From assembly GCF_026240635.1 (NCBI RefSeq), contig NZ_CP110848.1:3677741-3741740 (forward strand): a stretch of 64,000 bases of DNA, given 5' to 3'. This document shows positions 50,972-60,363 of the stretch, in pieces (within the stretch, counting starts at the first letter, position 1; each line of letters opens with the position of its first letter). The translations under genes and the position numbers were made by a program. Under the pieces are notes generated by a model, which worked only from the letters and a program-made list of their open reading frames with translations, was not told the origin of the DNA and did no database searches. This DNA comes from Trichothermofontia sichuanensis B231 (GTDB taxonomy: Bacteria; Cyanobacteriota; Cyanobacteriia; B231).

Positions 50972-51445
50972 AAGGCTCCAAGGTGCGCTGAGCAAGATGT
51001 GCGAGTTGAACGGCTGGGTCGGGGATGCAGGTTGAGAGCTGCAATCGGCCCAGGGATGTACATAAAGCTTAACAATTGTAGCGTAAAATATAAGGCAACG
51101 GTATTATTCCGTGTCGGTTCGGTTCCCTTAGCCGGCCTAGGCTAAAGTATCAAATTTTTCGATGGGTAATTAGGGTTTCGAGTTGCGGGCGAATTTGACC
51201 CCTGCGATCGCGGCAGAGGCTGATCCCGACAAAGGTATCAATCAGCAACATGAGGGGACTAACCTGGCTGACTGACCCATGTTTTGCCCTTGCACGAGGA
51301 GAGAGAACAGAGAACAGAGATAGTCGCTCAATTGTCCTCATTTCTTACTTCTCTAGCCTCACTCCTAAATGCCTTCTCCCACCAGGGGCGAAGGGACTTT
51401 AACCCCAAACCCTGGCTCGCAGGCTCCTCTCCCGCTCTGGGAGAG
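50972..51445. other. typA upstream region with repeat C
   Basis: Holds the typA leader and repeat C (51264-51390), then the CCTCTCCCGCTCTGGGAGAG hairpin into which ISAs1 is inserted. No gene is seen. Confidence 0.45.
51264..51390 (+). repeat. Repeat C copy 4
   Basis: CTGGCTGACTGACCCATG, CACGAGGAGAGAGAACAGAG, AACAGAGATAGTCGCTC, then a TCCTCATTTCTTACTTCTC tail. Confidence 0.6.
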
Positions 51446-52638
51446 CAGGGTGGTTGCATTTAGAGGGAGAAAAACCTTGCATCAGGAGCGCATAGACTAG
51501 CTGAAGTTGGTTGCTCAGCGCCCGCACCCCTGGCGGAATCGTCCGAAACGCTCGCTGACGCACGATCGTGATCACAAAACAATTCCAAATCGCCCAAATG
51601 CTCAGCGCCTTGCCCCCCGCACGCGCGGTATCTCCCGCAAAGTCAACACGCGCACCCAGTGTCAGCGGTTCTCAATGCCCCAATGCTCCTGAATGTGCGC
51701 CCAAAATGGCTCGGCACTGCCTTCGCGGTTGGTGATGTAACCCATACTCTCGCTAAACGCTTGACCCCCGCGCTGGCCCCAACGCTCAACCCGCATCCGA
51801 TGCTTGAGTCCTGGCCAGTGACGGCGCCAGGCCGCTGGGGCCGCATACACCGTTACCTGGCGATGGACCTGCCGCTGATATGAGGTATCCACCGGCTCGG
51901 CCTGACTGAGGCCATCACCCTGCTCAGGCATCTGCTGCAAGCTCCGATAGAGCGTCGGTTGCTTGGGCTTGAGGGCAAGCAGGTAATGTTGCTGCTGCTC
52001 AACCATTTGGGCAACCGTTTTTTTTGACAATGGAGGGCATCGCGGGTGAAGCTGAGCGGTTGCCCCGCCAACGCCGCCACCAACTGGCGCACGACCTCAA
52101 TCTTGCTGGTCTGCTGGTTCTCCATCACTTGTCAGTGCAGCACTACCCCTGTTTACTGGCTGAAGGCCGATACCGTCATCACCCAGTTTTGATCGGCAGC
52201 ACTGTAATCGGTCAGCGTACATTTGATGCTGTTGCCGTCGGCAGCGACCCAGGTTGGCGCCGAGACGGGGATAAAGTGTTGACGCCACTGATTAAACAAG
52301 GTTACCAACGGGGCAAAGTCAACGTGTTGCAACACACGGCGGAAAGTGGAATAAGAAGGGATGCGGGTGTCAGTCGGCACGTCTAACAGCGCGCAGAGGC
52401 TGGGCCAGTGCTGGTGCGAGCTCGGCTAAAGGCCGATAGCCGCGATCGCCACAGCGGGTGCCTAACAACACCCGCATCAGCACCAACCACAGGTGATGTC
52501 GTCAGCCTCTAGCTTTGGGGTAGTCAGGGATTGGCTTGAGGTGGGCGATGAGATCGAGGGTCTGCGGTTGCGTCATGGTTAGTCTAGAAGGCAGTTTAAC
52601 CCATCATCATTTTGCTCCCCACAAATGAAACCACCCTG
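51446..52638 (-). mobile_element. ISAs1-family insertion sequence, full length, decayed
   Basis: A 1193-bp element with terminal inverted repeats CAGGGTGGTTGCATTT (left) and, read inward, CAGGGTGGTTTCATTTG (right). It carries a broken ISAs1 transposase on the minus strand. The left end cuts a CTCTGGGAGAG hairpin and the right end continues into the rest of a MITE-B (to 52704). I could not define a clean target duplication. Confidence 0.85.
51475..52576 (-). pseudogene. ISAs1 transposase pseudogene
   Basis: Reading from ATG at 52576 (MTQPQTLDLIAHLKPIPD), the frame meets TGA after KARG. It then shifts several times. Recognisable parts are the HHLWLVLMRVLLGTRCGDRGYR segment, WVAADGNSIKCTL with the first catalytic Asp, DALHCQKK with the second, and HWGIENR with the Glu. 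After ENR comes TGA in frame, then a one-base deletion relative to the copy at 17537. The protein cannot be made whole. Confidence 0.85.
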
Positions 52639-52704
52639 CTCTCCCCCTGTGGAAGAGGGGCTGGGAGTGAGGCGGCTGTTTCAGCCTAAATTGCAATGAC
52701 TATA
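52639..52704 (-). mobile_element. MITE-B copy 11 (right part, cut by ISAs1)
   Basis: Starts at the hairpin next to the ISAs1 terminus and ends CCTAAATTGCAATGACTATA. Confidence 0.65.
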
Positions 52705-52924: not shown

Positions 52925-53884
52925 CTAAGAACTGTAGCTCTGCCAAATATGCACAAATCGGGTGAAGGTGGTCTCCGATAACTGGCTCTGGAGCCAAACC
53001 AGGGCACGGGTTTGATTCGGAAAGCGATCGGGTTGATAGGACTGACACAAATCCGCCAAGGAAACCGATGTGGGTTGGGGCGATCGATACACCGGATACC
53101 AGGTAACATCCTGCAGTAAGCGTTCCCAAGTCATGGCATCTACCTTGCCGGTGATGGGTAAGTGCTGCGACTGCTGGAACGATCGTACCGCCGCCGCTGT
53201 CTGGGGACCAAAGTGGCCATCCTCCTTTACCAGGGGATCAGCACCGCGCACATTTAACAATAACTGCAACACCTTAACGGCTGAGTTTGTATCCCCCAAC
53301 TGCAAATCCGGCTTGCGCGTTGTGTTCGAGGGAGGTAAACGACGGCTGCGGGCGGCCAGAACTGGTGACCAGCGCAACAGGGCTGACCAAGTCTGCTCAT
53401 CCACCCGACCCTCATCCGGCAGACCACACTGGCGCTGAAAAAACACCAACGCCCGATAGGTTTGCTCCCCAAACACCCCGTCTTCCAGGAGGGGGGGGAT
53501 CGTCCCACTGGCATTTAACAGCGCTTGCACTTCCCGCACCAGCAACCCCTGATCGCCATACAGCAGCAACCAGTGCCCCTTGCTTGGCCGCGTAACTGCC
53601 GCAACCGGTTCTCCCCCGGCGAAATAGGATAACAGTGCTGCATCTGAAAGGGATGGTGTCGACACACGACTGGCCTGACGTAAGGCCTCCCAAGTGGGGT
53701 GATCTACCCGGCCATTAGCCACTAATCCCTGTTGGGCTTGCAGCAGGCACACCGCTGAATAGGTGGAGTTGCCAAAATAACCATTTTCATCAATGCGAGG
53801 CACGATCGCCGCTGCATTAATCAGCCGCTGGAGTTCACGGACGGCTGCCCCTTGATCGCCGTAGGTGAGGACTGGATCTCGCAT
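52925..53884 (-). CDS. Triple peptidoglycan-binding-domain protein with Trp-Leu module
   Basis: A 319-residue protein with three PG_binding_1-like domains, about residues 5-72 (TYGDQGAAVRELQRLIN), 105-175 (LYGDQGLLVREVQALLN) and 195-262 (QLGDTNSAVKVLQLLLN). Each ends in a G-x-V-D-x-x-T-W-x-x-L type segment. A C-terminal module of about 45 residues follows: LADLCQSYQPDRF, then QTRALVWLQSQLSETTFTRF and HIWQS. No signal peptide, membrane helix or catalytic domain is visible. The ATG at 53884 starts MRDPVLTYG. It is last in a three-gene operon, 65 bp after its neighbour. Cellular location and ligand unknown. Confidence 0.85.
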   Translation of the reverse strand: MRDPVLTYGDQGAAVRELQRLINAAAIVPRIDENGYFGNSTYSAVCLLQAQQGLVANGRVDHPTWEALRQASRVSTPSLSDAALLSYFAGGEPVAAVTRPSKGHWLLLYGDQGLLVREVQALLNASGTIPPLLEDGVFGEQTYRALVFFQRQCGLPDEGRVDEQTWSALLRWSPVLAARSRRLPPSNTTRKPDLQLGDTNSAVKVLQLLLNVRGADPLVKEDGHFGPQTAAAVRSFQQSQHLPITGKVDAMTWERLLQDVTWYPVYRSPQPTSVSLADLCQSYQPDRFPNQTRALVWLQSQLSETTFTRFVHIWQSYSS

Positions 53885-53894
53885 TCTGTTGACT

Positions 53895-53948
53895 CCAATT
53901 GCTGAATTCAAAGTTCAAAATTCAAGATTCAAAATTCAAGATTCAAAG
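53895..53948. repeat. ATTCAA tandem repeat in operon spacer
   Basis: The 65-bp spacer is filled by six to seven imperfect copies of an 8- to 9-bp AATTCAAGA/ATTCAAAG unit. AT-rich against GC-rich surroundings. Confidence 0.7.
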
Positions 53949-53949
53949 G

Positions 53950-55308
53950 TCAAAACAACTCAGGCATTGGAACTCGATGGTTGGCTGAGGTTTCGTCCGC
54001 AGACCACAGGCGGGCGAATTCCTGGAGGACGGCGGCTGGGATTTGGGCTTGTAACCATTCCAGAGCCGCCTGTTGTTCAGGGGTGACGATCGCGTGGGTT
54101 TGCTGATAGGCCCGCAGCAGACTGAGTGGTTGGGCAGAGGCCGCGCTGGCAAGTGCCGAAACCGGATCAGCGCTAGCCGCCCTCAGTAGGGACGGGGGAC
54201 GGGTAGCCCTGTCCGGGGGATAGAGGTGGGGATTCCGCCAATAGGCAGCAAAATCCTGGAGGATTGAGGCCGGGATCTGGGTTTGTAACCATTGCAGAGC
54301 CTCGGCTTGATGCGGCAAATCTTTATAGTAGGCAAAGGCACTCACCCAATCGAGGGGTACCTGCGGATCATGGGTTTCCCCGCGATACCGTTGCGCAAAT
54401 TCGTTGCCCACCGTTGCCGACACTTGGGATTGAAGCCAGCGGATCGCGTCGCTGCGGTGATAACCGCCATAGGTTTCAGGGCCGTCTAGGCGGAAATAGC
54501 GGGCAACCTCAACCAGATCCACGTCCCCGTTGACCAGCGGATCGGGAATGGCCAGCCAGCGATCGGGGGGTTCGTCTAACAACGCTTGCCAGGTGCGATC
54601 GTCCACGCGGCCAGTCACTTGGGCAGCCCCAAAGCGCTTCAGTTGCAGATCGCGAACTGCCTGCTCAGTGATCGGGTCAAACTCACCGTTGACCACCACC
54701 CGCACATAGCCAAACTTATACTTCAGAAGGCGCTGCAATTGATGGACGGGGCCATCCGCCGTCGCTGTATCCTGGCTCCCGATCGCCAAAGGCGGACGAC
54801 GCAATTCCCCCTCCCCAGTCCCCTCGCTATCCAGGCTATAGACCAGATTACCCCTAGACTCATCCCTGGGTACCCCGATCGACCACTTGCTCGGCAGATC
54901 AGCGGCCAACGGTGGGACAACCGTTGCCGTGGCAGGGACTGTTAAGGTCGTAACATTGATTTGACCGGGCTGCTGCCATGCGTGTCCAAAGGTAGCTAGT
55001 AGGGTTGGGGCTTCACTCAAAAGCTGCTGCTCTAGCCAGAACAGCGCTGCCTCTCGGTGTGGCCCCACCCCGCTCGGTGATTCCCGCTCTTGACGATAGG
55101 TTTGACAGACGGTGCGGAAATCGATCGCGGGAGGCTGAACGTCAGTCGTTTGGTGCCACAAGCGGGAGAACTCAGCCAGCACGGCACTGGGTACCCGGAG
55201 TGGATTCTGCAATTGGGTATCCAGCCAGTCCAAGAGCGCCGTTTGTGCGGGCGATCGCTCAGGGTCGTAGGTTTGACACACCTCGATCAGGCTAACCGGA
55301 CTGGACAT
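53950..55308 (-). CDS. Protein with one peptidoglycan-binding domain and five Trp-Leu modules
   Basis: A 452-residue protein starting MSSPVSLIEVCQTYDPERS. Two modules are at the N-terminus (LIEVCQTY...ALLDWLDTQLQ...VLAEFSRLW and FRTVCQTY...ALFWLEQQLL...LLATFGHAW). One PG_binding_1-like domain sits in the middle (DGPVHQLQRLLKYKFGY...VNGEFDPITEQAVRDLQ). Three modules close the protein (AIRWLQSQVSATVGNEFAQRY, ALQWLQTQIPASILQDFAAYW, ALEWLQAQIPAAVLQEFARLW). The module consensus is A-L-x-W-L-Q-x-Q-(I/L)...(L/V)-x-x-F-x-x-x-W, two predicted helices. No signal peptide or enzyme domain. The ATG at 55308 is chosen because the first module starts there. Confidence 0.85.
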   Translation of the reverse strand: MSSPVSLIEVCQTYDPERSPAQTALLDWLDTQLQNPLRVPSAVLAEFSRLWHQTTDVQPPAIDFRTVCQTYRQERESPSGVGPHREAALFWLEQQLLSEAPTLLATFGHAWQQPGQINVTTLTVPATATVVPPLAADLPSKWSIGVPRDESRGNLVYSLDSEGTGEGELRRPPLAIGSQDTATADGPVHQLQRLLKYKFGYVRVVVNGEFDPITEQAVRDLQLKRFGAAQVTGRVDDRTWQALLDEPPDRWLAIPDPLVNGDVDLVEVARYFRLDGPETYGGYHRSDAIRWLQSQVSATVGNEFAQRYRGETHDPQVPLDWVSAFAYYKDLPHQAEALQWLQTQIPASILQDFAAYWRNPHLYPPDRATRPPSLLRAASADPVSALASAASAQPLSLLRAYQQTHAIVTPEQQAALEWLQAQIPAAVLQEFARLWSADETSANHRVPMPELF

Positions 55309-55449
55309 AAAGCAGCACCTCAACTTCTCACCAGGACATTCTTCACCCATTCAACCGTTCGCCAAGACTTGACGACTCAGCAGACTGCTGACGAGACGAC
55401 GCAAACGATAACCGTGTCCACAGGATAACCGCAGAATGCGCAGAATGCT

Positions 55450-57582
55450 CTAAGTGCCGCTTCCTGGGATATGCCAGCGCTGCTGAAATTCGGTTAAGGT
55501 AGCCGTGGGTAACTGTTGCGAAAGCCATCGCAATGCCTGTTGTTGACTGGTTGTCAAGGGGATGTCACCCTGGGCATAGAGGTCCACCAAATCTAAGGTT
55601 GGCAGTGGGGGAGTGGTGCTGGGGATGAGGGGATCAGGGCGCAGCGAGGCGGCGGCAGCCTGAGGAGGGGGAGGCTCCGTGCCTGAATCGCGATCGCCGG
55701 GTGACCGGGCCGTCAATGCGGAAGGCAAGGATACATCCGGCGGTGGTACCGCTGCCAATAAGCCGGTTGCTGCGGCTGGCTCTGCGGCGGGTGACCCCTG
55801 ATCTGGGGCCACCACCGGTTCTGTGAGAACATGCCCCATCAAGGCGTCCCAAGTGGGCAGCGTCACTGCGGCCTCAGCCGGGGGCGTGGTATCTTGTCCC
55901 ATCAAAACTTCCCACGTGGCCCGATCAACCACGCCGGTCGGCGGTAAATCATGGCTGCACTGAAAGTCAGAGACTGCGTGGAACGTCGCCTCATTAAATT
56001 GACCATCAACCGTTAACACATACCCATACTCATTCAACAGGGTTTGCAAATAGGCGATCGGACCCTGTGCCGCCGTATCGGTCTGGCCTTTTTGGAGCAA
56101 AGGGAGCGCGGCGGGGGTAGTGGCAGGCGGGACCGCTCCTGTCACGGGACTTAAATCAACAAGACTTAAATCAATGGGACTTAAATCAACCCGATCGGTG
56201 GAGGGTGAGGGCGCTAGATCAACAATTTTGATAAGACTGGTGGCGATCGGGGGGGCACTGGGACCTTCACTAGAACTTTCACTGGAACTCGCCAACCAGG
56301 ACTCCTCCCAAGTCAAGCTGGGGTCAGCAACCAGTGCGGCGGCGGTCGCTGGCTTGGCCAGTAGGGTCAAGGGGTCTAGGGGTTTAGCGGCTTCCTGCTC
56401 CAGCTTAGCCCACGTATCGGGGCCAACTTCACCAGGGGGATCAGTCAGATCAGGAAATTGGGATTGAAACTGCCGAACCGCCTGCTCCGTGGCTACATCA
56501 AAAGTGCCGGTCAAGGGAACACCCAGACCGACTACAAACAGTAGGCGTTGCAGTTGTCGAATCGGCCCATTGGGGAGGTCATTATCGGTTGCGTGTAACC
56601 GTAACCAGGGATGGTGAGTGGGGGTGGTTGCAGTTGCCGTGGTTGGACGATCGCTGGCAGGGGCCGCCGAAACCGATCGCGCCGCGATCGTAGGCACCTT
56701 GCTCAGGTTAACGATCGTGGCATCGATGGGGGGAACGGGCTGCGCCGCTGCACCGGTCGTTGGACTGGCCGTTGGACTGGTCGTGGCATCCTGGCGATCT
56801 TCACGGAACAGTTGTAACCAATCAGCCGCATTGATCACCCCATCCGACAGCAGGGAAGGGTGGCTATTCTGGTAGGCCACCACGACCTCATGCAATTCCT
56901 GATCAAAGCGGCCATTAACCTCACCCTTGTAATAACCGTGATCCCGCAAAAAGGCTTGTAGTTGGCGAATGGGGCCATCAACACTACCCTGGGGATCCGC
57001 ATCTCCTAGACGTAATTGGGGCAGTTGACCCTGATCATCCCGAAAGGGGTAGGCTTGCCAGGTAGGACTTTGGGGCGAGAAGTGGGTGTACTGATACGCC
57101 GCAACGGCTTGCGGGGTCAGTGATTCCCCGCTAGGGACACGGCTTGAGCGCCCTGGGATGACTAGATCCGGCGGGAGGTACTGGTTTGTCCCCAAGGGAC
57201 AGGGGGACAGGGCGGGCTGAGCGGTCTGGGGGGTAGAACTGTGCACTGGGGGCGTGAGCAGGGCTTCCCAGACGGCATCATCCACCACAGTCTGATCAAT
57301 CGCAACCGTATTGACTGTGGTGGTCGAGGACGGAGATACCGAGAACTGCCGTAGTTGGAAATCTTTGACTGCCGCCAGAGTGAGGAGATCAAACTGGCCA
57401 TTTACCAGAACGTAGTTATAGCCGCGATCGCGCAGCAAACGTTGCAGGTAACGCACCGGGCCATCCGCGGGATCAGGGTCAGTGATACCCAGGCGCAATT
57501 CGGGCCTCCCGTTGGCGGTAAGCGGCCCCGACCAGGGAGTATGGAGAGAGTCAAGGTTCGCAACCGCAGAGGAATTAGTCAT
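55450..57582 (-). CDS. Four peptidoglycan-binding-domain protein with C-terminal Trp-Leu module
   Basis: A 710-residue protein with PG_binding_1-like domains at about 25-110, 188-262, 330-405 and 500-570. Each has the variant D/N/Q-G-P-(V/I)-x-x-L-Q-x-(L/F)-L in place of the normal G-x-x-V-x-x-L-Q and a NGQFD/NGRFD/TGTFD/DGQFN turn. Long Pro/Thr/Ala linkers separate them. The C-terminus is one Trp-Leu module (LVDLYAQGD, then QQALRWLSQQLPTATLTEFQQRW). There is no signal peptide; it starts MTNSSAVANLDSLHTPW. It is first in the operon and divergent from the membrane protein. Function unknown; a scaffold or baseplate-like part is possible. Confidence 0.85.
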   Translation of the reverse strand: MTNSSAVANLDSLHTPWSGPLTANGRPELRLGITDPDPADGPVRYLQRLLRDRGYNYVLVNGQFDLLTLAAVKDFQLRQFSVSPSSTTTVNTVAIDQTVVDDAVWEALLTPPVHSSTPQTAQPALSPCPLGTNQYLPPDLVIPGRSSRVPSGESLTPQAVAAYQYTHFSPQSPTWQAYPFRDDQGQLPQLRLGDADPQGSVDGPIRQLQAFLRDHGYYKGEVNGRFDQELHEVVVAYQNSHPSLLSDGVINAADWLQLFREDRQDATTSPTASPTTGAAAQPVPPIDATIVNLSKVPTIAARSVSAAPASDRPTTATATTPTHHPWLRLHATDNDLPNGPIRQLQRLLFVVGLGVPLTGTFDVATEQAVRQFQSQFPDLTDPPGEVGPDTWAKLEQEAAKPLDPLTLLAKPATAAALVADPSLTWEESWLASSSESSSEGPSAPPIATSLIKIVDLAPSPSTDRVDLSPIDLSLVDLSPVTGAVPPATTPAALPLLQKGQTDTAAQGPIAYLQTLLNEYGYVLTVDGQFNEATFHAVSDFQCSHDLPPTGVVDRATWEVLMGQDTTPPAEAAVTLPTWDALMGHVLTEPVVAPDQGSPAAEPAAATGLLAAVPPPDVSLPSALTARSPGDRDSGTEPPPPQAAAASLRPDPLIPSTTPPLPTLDLVDLYAQGDIPLTTSQQQALRWLSQQLPTATLTEFQQRWHIPGSGT

Positions 57583-58329
57583 AGTGCCTGTTGGTAGTGC
57601 CTCGAGTACCTGCTGTCTGCATAGAGCGGTCCATTATGGCGCATTATGGCCCAAGATCTGGCTAGATCTTGCCGATCGCACCGATCACTTAGTAGTGCTT
57701 AACATTCGGCTGCTGATTAACCCCAAAACTCAACAAAAAGTTAACACACCCCTGATCTCAGTAGGCAAGTGTCATGCAACCCAAGCTCCTCATCGCCTAA
57801 CCCCCCTGGTTGACTGACCCATCTTTTCCCCTTCACGAGGAGAGAGGACAGAGAACAGAGAACAGAGAACAGAGATAGTCACTCAGTTGCCCTCACTGCT
57901 CACTGTTCTATCCTCACTCCTAAAGGTCTTCTCCCACCAGGGGCGAAGGGACTTTAGTCGCCCGCTCTGGGAGGGGGATTGGGGTGAAGATGCTTCGAGT
58001 TTTTGTCAGTTAATCAGCCCCTAACCCCTTCTCCCGACTAGGGAGAAGGGGGACCCATCCCACTATCCTCGCCCCACTCCCGCACACGGAGGGTGGACAG
58101 AGGGACCTGCAAGGGGGCAGGAGTAAGGACGATTCGCCGGTGCAGATGCGGCACGAACGATGATCATTCTGTCGAATGGGCGCGATCTACTGAGTAAGGG
58201 AGATGACTTGCTTACAGGTTTCTAAAGTTTGCGATCGGGCTTGCGGTAGGGGGTTAGTTTTGATGTTAAACTCCAAGGCACGCTCATCCCAGCTAAGGCG
58301 CTAGGGGATTCAGGCTGGAGTTTGGAAGT
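57583..58329. other. Divergent promoter region with repeat C
   Basis: About 750 bp between the operon and the membrane protein gene. It holds repeat C copy 6 (57808-57960) and low-complexity CCTCACTCC-type text. Both promoters must lie here; I cannot place them. No gene is seen. Confidence 0.45.
57808..57960 (+). repeat. Repeat C copy 6, with 7-bp tandem core
   Basis: GGTTGACTGACCCATCTTTT, CACGAGGAGAGAGGAC, then three and a half AGAGAAC units, TAGTCACTCAGTTGCCC and TATCCTCACTCCTAAA. The core has more units here than in copies 1 and 4. Confidence 0.7.
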
Positions 58330-60363
58330 ATGAATTTGCCCTTAATTATTGATATTGCGATCGGCCTCATCTTCATTTATCTAATTCTGAGTCTGTTCAC
58401 ATCGGAATTACAAGAACTGCTAACGACTTTATTACAATGGCGCGCGGTCCATCTTAAGGAATCGATTGAGGGGTTATTGGCAGGCAGTAACACCTCCGAG
58501 CAACTACGCAAGTCGCGCCAGCTAGCTAATCGCCTGTATAATAATCCGCTGATCAGAACACTTAACCAAGAGGCAAAGGGACGGTTTTTAGTCTTTACGC
58601 GCATCGCTAATGGGTGGTATTACCTCTTTAGGGTGTTTGGCCAGGACGATGAGGGCAACATCAAGACCAGTGGTCCTTCCTACATTCCCAGCCAAGCCTT
58701 TGCAGTTAGCCTGATGGATACCCTAGGGATACCTCAAATTGCGTCCCTGATCAGTCTGCTGCGGCTGAAGAGTTTTGTGGTGGGGCAAATTCTCACGCAA
58801 GTTGGCAATGATAAACTACGCCAGCGGTTGCAGTCGCGTTTTGAGAGTATTCTCAATAGCTATCAGCAGCAGCAGACTGACTTAGCGACCACTGTCAGTC
58901 GTATCGTAGAAGCGTGCGATCGCTATGCCAACCTAGCCGAACTGAGCGATCGTGAGCAATTAGCGCTTCAGCTTGCCGAACTCAATACAACCGAGGATCT
59001 TGACCTAACGGTTCAGGATATTTTGCAGTTTCGTGCCCTCCGCGAGGGAGTGTTTGGTTTACCCGACAGCCCAACAGAAACTGCAGTAATTGTTCGCTAC
59101 CTGCAACCGACATTAATCGATTTAGTGAATCTGATTCGCGAACACGCTAACGTTGATCGATTTTGGCAACGATATAAGAATATCCGTGATGAGGTTGCCC
59201 AACGAATTCTCTACACTGAAGTGTTGTCTGCTATCCGTCGCTTTATCAGCGAAGTCAGTGCATCGTCACAAATGACGGATGAACAACGATCAGCCGTGCT
59301 TAAGGACATTCTGGCGGTAGAAACCCGCATGGATGAATTTTTGCGTCACCCCCCGATTTCACTGGTTGATGTTCCCTATCGCAACCTGTTAGATCAGGCG
59401 ATCGCCCCAATCCGAGCTAATCTAAATCGTCCGGAGTGGGGGGATTGGATTGTCGATGAAATCATGAAACGTCTGAATATCCACCAAATTGATTTGGAGC
59501 GAGTAAATCATGAACGGGCCGAGTTAAAGAATTATATTGATTCTCTGGTGGATATCCTGCCAGCAATGCGCCAGGACTTCCTAGTATTTGCTAATTTGCT
59601 AGCCCAACAGGGCGGGGCAGAAGTTGAAAGTCTCTGGAATTTATTAGTGACTCGCTTAGCCCCCCTAGAGCAAAGTGGCGAACTCAACCAATATCTCAAA
59701 GACATGCTCACGATCCTGGCTGAGCAGGCGCATCTTAAAGCGGCTAGTATCCGCGCAGAGCTAACCCAATTCCAACAGGAATTGGAAAATTGGTTTGATC
59801 AGGCGATCGCCCGTGCGGCGGGAGTGTATAAGCGCAATACGAAATTGGTCGCGATTTGTTTGGGGATCATAGCGGCGATCGCTGTCAATGCTGATACTAT
59901 CCATATAGTCACCCGTCTCGCTGCCGATTCAGCGTTGCGCGATGATGTGGTGACGATCGCGACAGAGGCTGCCAAAGCCGAAATTACTGGCCCCACGTCC
60001 GATGGGGGAGCTAACCAGGGACCCAATCCAAATCGCGAATGCTTGGCCCTGCCGCGCTCTGAAGCAGAGAAACAGGAAAATTGCCAACAGTTTTTCGCCA
60101 TTTTAGAGAATGCGGCTCAAGAGGTAGCTCTACCGATCGGCTGGGGCGACAATAACCGGCTGCGGCAGCGTCAAGAGGCCCAGCAGGGCCTCTGGCAAAA
60201 TATCTGGCCTGCTCGCTACGCCTTGGGCTGGTTAATTACGGGGATTGCCCTCTCAATGGGGGCAAGTTTCTGGTACGACCTGCTGGGTCGCTTTATCTCG
60301 GTCCGCAATACGGGCAAAAAACCGGAAACCCCCCCTGCCCCTAGTACGAGTACAAAAGTATAG
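58330..60363 (+). CDS. Large three-helix membrane protein
   Basis: A 677-residue protein. The first membrane helix is near residues 5-25 (IDIAIGLIFIYLILSLF), leading into a conserved-looking LQELLTTLLQWRAVHLKESIEGLL. A long, mostly helical soluble domain of about 470 residues follows. Helix 2 (about 508-528, LVAICLGIIAAIAV) and helix 3 (about 633-655, LGWLITGIALSMGASFWY) bracket a loop of about 100 residues with two cysteines (NRECLALP and QENCQQFF). The tail DLLGRFISVRNTGKKPE is short and basic. I do not recognise a named family. If the large domain is cytoplasmic, the Cys loop is periplasmic or lumenal. The ATG at 58330 has GGAG-like sequence upstream. Divergent from the peptidoglycan-binding operon. 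Confidence 0.88.
   Translation: MNLPLIIDIAIGLIFIYLILSLFTSELQELLTTLLQWRAVHLKESIEGLLAGSNTSEQLRKSRQLANRLYNNPLIRTLNQEAKGRFLVFTRIANGWYYLFRVFGQDDEGNIKTSGPSYIPSQAFAVSLMDTLGIPQIASLISLLRLKSFVVGQILTQVGNDKLRQRLQSRFESILNSYQQQQTDLATTVSRIVEACDRYANLAELSDREQLALQLAELNTTEDLDLTVQDILQFRALREGVFGLPDSPTETAVIVRYLQPTLIDLVNLIREHANVDRFWQRYKNIRDEVAQRILYTEVLSAIRRFISEVSASSQMTDEQRSAVLKDILAVETRMDEFLRHPPISLVDVPYRNLLDQAIAPIRANLNRPEWGDWIVDEIMKRLNIHQIDLERVNHERAELKNYIDSLVDILPAMRQDFLVFANLLAQQGGAEVESLWNLLVTRLAPLEQSGELNQYLKDMLTILAEQAHLKAASIRAELTQFQQELENWFDQAIARAAGVYKRNTKLVAICLGIIAAIAVNADTIHIVTRLAADSALRDDVVTIATEAAKAEITGPTSDGGANQGPNPNRECLALPRSEAEKQENCQQFFAILENAAQEVALPIGWGDNNRLRQRQEAQQGLWQNIWPARYALGWLITGIALSMGASFWYDLLGRFISVRNTGKKPETPPAPSTSTKV

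Follow-up and report, generated by a model that had tools for sequence, protein, structure and literature searches.

What might be the role of three neighbouring genes whose products combine peptidoglycan-binding domains with a recurrent Trp-Leu module and have neither a catalytic domain nor an export signal? The question is raised by a locus of Trichothermofontia sichuanensis B231, analysed here within a stretch of 64,000 nucleotides (hereafter the window, to which positions refer unless another source is named). The three ORFs lie side by side on the minus strand at 52925-57582, separated by 38 and 99 bp, and may form an operon (Table 1). An internal ATG in gene 2, at about 55308, would yield a product of 452 aa.

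Table 1. Genes, PG_binding_1 domains and module copies of the locus, in order of transcription.
Feature	Position in window	Strand	Remarks
Gene 3	55450..57582	-	710 aa; four PG_binding_1 domains of the D-G-P type and one C-terminal module; first in putative operon
PG_binding_1 domain 1 of gene 3	57346..57459	-	ADGPVRYLQ; E 1.8e-6
PG_binding_1 domain 2 of gene 3	56824..56973	-	VDGPIRQLQ; E 1.4e-7
PG_binding_1 domain 3 of gene 3	56401..56562	-	NGPIRQLQ; E 6.5e-9
PG_binding_1 domain 4 of gene 3	55903..56055	-	QGPIAYLQ; E 1.6e-14
Module copy of gene 3	55459..55596	-	Residues 663-708; profile search
Gene 2	53950..55350	-	466 aa; two modules, one PG_binding_1 domain, three modules, in this order
Module 1 of gene 2	55141..55296	-	Residues 19-70; profile search
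Module 2 of gene 2	54961..55125	-	Residues 76-130; profile search
PG_binding_1 domain of gene 2	54580..54750	-	ADGPVHQLQ; E 1.1e-11
Module 3 of gene 2	54367..54522	-	Residues 277-328; profile search
Module 4 of gene 2	54223..54360	-	Residues 331-376; near general consensus; modelled as three-helix bundle
Module 5 of gene 2	53989..54126	-	Residues 409-454; profile search
Gene 1	52925..53911	-	328 aa; three ordinary PG_binding_1 domains and one C-terminal module; last in putative operon
PG_binding_1 domain 1 of gene 1	53681..53854	-	E 5.9e-11
PG_binding_1 domain 2 of gene 1	53378..53545	-	E 2.2e-13
PG_binding_1 domain 3 of gene 1	53117..53287	-	E 2.0e-15
Module copy of gene 1	52928..53065	-	Residues 283-328; profile search

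Peptidoglycan binding is the accepted role of the PG_binding_1 family. A preliminary description of the locus had assigned eight such domains to the three adjacent minus-strand genes, and searches agree: Pfam (PF01471, curated cut-off 23 bits) finds three, one and four domains above the cut-off in genes 1, 2 and 3, the three proteins scoring 147, 43.7 and 139 bits as wholes, and the eight sites were also located individually. The unusual D-G-P-(V/I)-x-x-L-Q start that it had noticed in two of the genes is confined, within the trio, to genes 2 and 3. Seven module copies, distributed 1/5/1 as it had proposed, were all recovered (7/7) by leave-one-out HMMs. Its claim that the trio contains no catalytic wall-hydrolase domain likewise stands in Pfam, PHROGs and NCBIfam. 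Pfam matches are to PG-binding families only, no domain that would act on peptidoglycan is found in the three proteins, and the endolysin matches in PHROGs and NCBIfam are restricted to PG-binding stretches.

The same description had considered the proteins to be devoid of signal peptides and transmembrane helices. None was seen in any of the three, as judged from hydropathy and inspection of the reading frames rather than from SignalP. Hydropathy averaged over 19 residues peaks at 1.0, 1.2 and 1.6, and such averages beginning within the first 42 residues do not exceed 0.8. Signal peptides provided by alternative upstream starts were looked for in the frames of all three genes; upstream of each gene an in-frame stop is met, and no start codon that would supply a leader lies between.

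The surroundings of the trio feature repeats and remnants of mobile DNA. A broken transposase (51423-52661), bounded by 52-nt inverted repeats that are 79% complementary, lies directly downstream, between typA and the trio. A 106-nt direct repeat (51296-51401 and 57851-57956, 88% identical) flanks the genes. It is one of a dispersed family matched about 45 times across the genome and therefore does not mark the trio as a mobile unit bracketed by direct repeats. On the other side, a divergent plus-strand ORF of 677 aa (58330-60363) adjoins the trio; its two ends carry hydrophobic segments, and neither Pfam nor NCBIfam gives a clear match.

Module copies are homologous to one another. Each of the seven is detected by the HMM of the other six with E values from 6.7e-7 to 1.2e-13, whereas 900 proteins obtained by shuffling the three reach 0.018 at best. 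No further copies occur outside the trio in the 4.44-Mb, single-contig genome, in which the next best match has an E value of 0.0995. The module is about 45 residues long. Alignment of 151 distinct host and viral copies gives roughly the pattern I-x-L-x-D-V-x-K-Y-Y ... P-H-Q-x-x-A-L-x-W-L-Q-x-Q ... L-x-E-F-A-x-R-W-R, in which a glutamine (95%), an alanine (90%), a leucine (98%), a phenylalanine (98%) and a tryptophan or tyrosine (99%) are nearly fixed. An AlphaFold2 model obtained from an alignment of eleven copies comprises three helices (residues 6-13, 19-29 and 32-43; mean pLDDT 81). The single-sequence model of gene 2 is poor overall (mean pLDDT 51), although the first two modules in it take the form of helical bundles, at a pLDDT of about 70-90. 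Foldseek retrieved no fold relatives in the PDB for the 49-residue module model, short helical models carrying little signal.

PG_binding_1, LysM, SH3 and CW_7 are small repeated domains attached to lysins. In contrast to these named, non-catalytic wall-binding repeats, the module matches no Pfam model; LysM, SH3 and CW_7 were compared with it through Pfam scans alone. The possibility that it is a divergent PG_binding_1 domain is ruled against by profile-profile comparison (probability 0.2%). NCBIfam, PHROGs domain models and PDB sequences gave no match either, in line with the preliminary description, which knew of no named domain for the module, although whole-protein PHROGs endolysin profiles may contain it without naming it. 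We found no earlier description of the module in the open-licence literature, and it is not one of the seven accessory domains annotated in a systematic study of GH19 proteins (PMC8547705). Provisionally, the module is regarded as undescribed.

A profile to which relatives had been added (A2) detects the module in 111 of 390 sampled Cyanobacteriia genomes. The Pfam domains that accompany it in 84 non-redundant proteins are PG_binding_1 (60 proteins), GH25 (23), C39 (19) and GH19 (7) and, more rarely, trypsin (3), amidases (2) and M15 (1). Comparison with labelled domains reveals no catalytic domain in 35 of the 84, the three window genes being counted among them. For the trio as a whole no close relative came to light, and a scan of genome contigs yielded two distant C39/GH19 relatives only. 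The nearest trio relative outside the window genome (L075) is a 496-aa protein with four PG_binding_1 domains and one module. This protein, and the short proteins of about 125 aa with one PG_binding_1 domain and one module that also belong to the set of 35, resemble the trio in having neither a recognised catalytic domain nor a leader. Unlike the trio, they are encoded by solitary genes, and none has as many modules as gene 2. GH25 - PG_binding_1 - module proteins without a leader (for example L062, L064 and L067) also share with the trio PG_binding_1 domains, one to five modules and the lack of a signal peptide, but carry an N-terminal GH25 lysozyme domain that the trio lacks.

Reading frames were inspected around several dozen module matches, and a hydrophobic N-terminus is lacking in nearly all module proteins. 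The clearest exceptions (L070 and L071) are found among three proteins in which a trypsin-like protease is followed by a Pilin_GH domain (PF16734) and two C-terminal modules (L070:7599-9215, L071:7633-9390 and L086:6529-9249), so the module is also carried by probably exported proteins. In three cyanobacterial genomes, including Geitlerinema sp. BBD 1991-9 and Baaleninema simplex PCC 7105, two adjacent module genes are followed by a large gene with a TIR-like start (L063:8968-14847, L095:10103-15997 and L096:10001-16960; one ORF intervenes before the large gene in L096). One gene of the pair encodes module, C39, PG-binding and GH19 domains, and the other module and C39; the arrangement is possibly a lysis or defence cassette. 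Module matches are present in 3 of 72,556 plasmids, all cyanobacterial. One is the Tolypothrix sp. PCC 7601 plasmid unnamed5, typed as conjugative, whose module-bearing peptidoglycan-binding gene (L098:7575-8282) is also found on two related plasmids.

Phages of cyanobacteria use the module as well. A hand-written consensus matched 25 of 50,697 phage records, 23 of which are Synechococcus phages or other cyanophages. These correspond to about 15 distinct phages, some of them individually weak matches, and nearly all matches fall in an endolysin or lysozyme gene; the remaining two are unannotated faecal records (E 8). The profile built from host copies confirms the module in five phage proteins (E 7e-17 to 1e-9), four of which have a Pfam glucosaminidase, C39 or weak GH19 match beside it. 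An N-terminal module is carried by 29 of 80 IMG/VR viral loci fetched with the S-EIVl lysin, a count biased by the bait. The phage link is visible by consensus and profile only: gene 2 as a whole matches no phage record, and viral contigs scanned with a host protein gave no relative. The same module occurs in Synechococcus phage endolysins (S-EIVl, P60, S-B28, 7B11-B, S-SRP01 and S-CRES1), for which an action on peptidoglycan is annotated or predicted. These combine a catalytic domain (glucosaminidase, C39 or GH19-like) with a single module; in the trio no catalytic domain is recognised, and a protein has as many as five modules. From the Cyanobacteriia genomes, phage records and plasmids surveyed, the module appears to be a feature of cyanobacteria and their phages.

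A potential enzymatic partner is encoded in the window genome itself. Gene 3 has its closest relative there: a leader-less ORF of 1099 aa, located about 1.6 Mb from the trio (about C1:2116675-2119971), which has four PG_binding_1 domains, a C-terminal C39 peptidase-like domain and no module. It is 36% identical to gene 3 over 259 residues, and three of its four PG domains begin, like those of genes 2 and 3, with GP-(V/I)-x-x-LQ. Its C39 domain is about 44% identical to a module-fused C39 domain of another cyanobacterium; the genome yielded no second C39_2 domain and no GH25 domain. Parts that are joined in one chain elsewhere are therefore divided here between a catalytic C39 protein and three non-catalytic proteins. 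Because the C39 protein has both the D-G-P type of PG domain and a C39 domain akin to module-fused ones, a split enzyme/targeting arrangement is plausible, in which the proteins would act together.

That the module recurs as an accessory domain in many wall hydrolases of cyanobacteria and in cyanophage endolysins suggests a function in wall targeting or in lysins. Judging from its fusion partners, wall binding is the most likely activity of the module. In our best reading, to which we give a probability of roughly 0.55, the module is a small three-helix lysin accessory domain, likely wall-targeting, and the trio consists of enzyme-free, leader-less relatives of lysins that probably partner a separate lysin. 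The proteins would be lysin-type wall binders, multivalent and non-catalytic, produced without an export signal, and would hold peptidoglycan via many weak sites (eight PG_binding_1 domains and seven modules). They would presumably meet the wall upon lysis, upon envelope damage or through some export route, and would work with a separate lysin, for which the only C39 protein of the genome is the best candidate. The distance of about 1.6 Mb to the C39 gene, the lack of the module in that protein, the missing export signals of the trio and the three module proteins whose partner is a trypsin domain, not a wall enzyme, count against this reading.

Other explanations fit parts of the evidence. The preliminary description had taken the reuse of modules in different counts as a sign of scaffold assembly. 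In an intracellular scaffold, modules would associate among themselves or with partner proteins, while PG_binding_1 domains would serve as plain protein-protein modules. The absence of export signals, the high and unequal module counts and the three trypsin-domain proteins, by which the module is not tied solely to wall enzymes, agree with this view. Yet in other genomes and in phages the partners of the module are overwhelmingly PG-binding domains or wall hydrolases (GH25, C39, GH19, amidase, cyanophage endolysins); the scaffold is not supported by this distribution and appears rather unlikely. That the trio is what remains of module-bearing hydrolases after loss of their catalytic domains seems slightly less probable again: catalytic relatives are common and a degenerate transposase sits immediately downstream, but three long reading frames have stayed intact, enzyme-free proteins of PG_binding_1 domains and modules are frequent elsewhere, and L075 displays the same 4+1 architecture as gene 3. 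A role as intracellular sensors or regulators, in which the proteins would recognise wall fragments (muropeptides) and act on a signalling pathway, we regard as improbable. In several genomes, short PG_binding_1-module genes do have response-regulator or histidine-kinase genes beside them or nearby (L056:6563-9099, L089:8783-10109, L061, L059 and L092, two of these being divergent). Two-component genes are, however, abundant in cyanobacteria, and no such gene is next to the trio.

The many module copies without a catalytic domain, shared with cyanophage endolysins, would also suit decoys that occupy the wall sites of cyanophage or neighbour lysins and thus blunt lysis. Against this, no defence genes were noticed adjoining the trio, and a cytoplasmic protein would reach the wall only once lysis is under way; we hold the decoy function to be likewise improbable, and marginally more so its extension to the protection of neighbouring cells, in which the wall would be shielded by means of the lysins' own targeting module. 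Contractile injection, by which leader-less wall proteins of cyanobacteria could travel, is the most doubtful proposal. Module and tube gene occur together in 68 genomes (Fisher p 1e-7, uncorrected for ancestry and genome size), while 42 other module-bearing genomes have no tube gene. Since the tube gene (PF06841), which an identical search detects in 156 of the 390 relatives, was not found in the window genome, a role as injection cargo is unlikely here and, for this genome, largely refuted.

Enzyme-free, leader-less lysin relatives thus remain the preferred interpretation of the trio. Lysin accessory domains are a known kind of protein module; provisionally, the module described here is a new variant of that kind, and the trio represents a use of it free of catalysis, which raises the question of how leader-less wall proteins act in cyanobacteria. 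Should the module prove to target the wall, cyanobacteria and their phages would have such a domain in common, and its recognition would help to annotate many cyanobacterial proteins now labelled 'hypothetical' or 'peptidoglycan-binding' and would clarify lysis by cyanophages.
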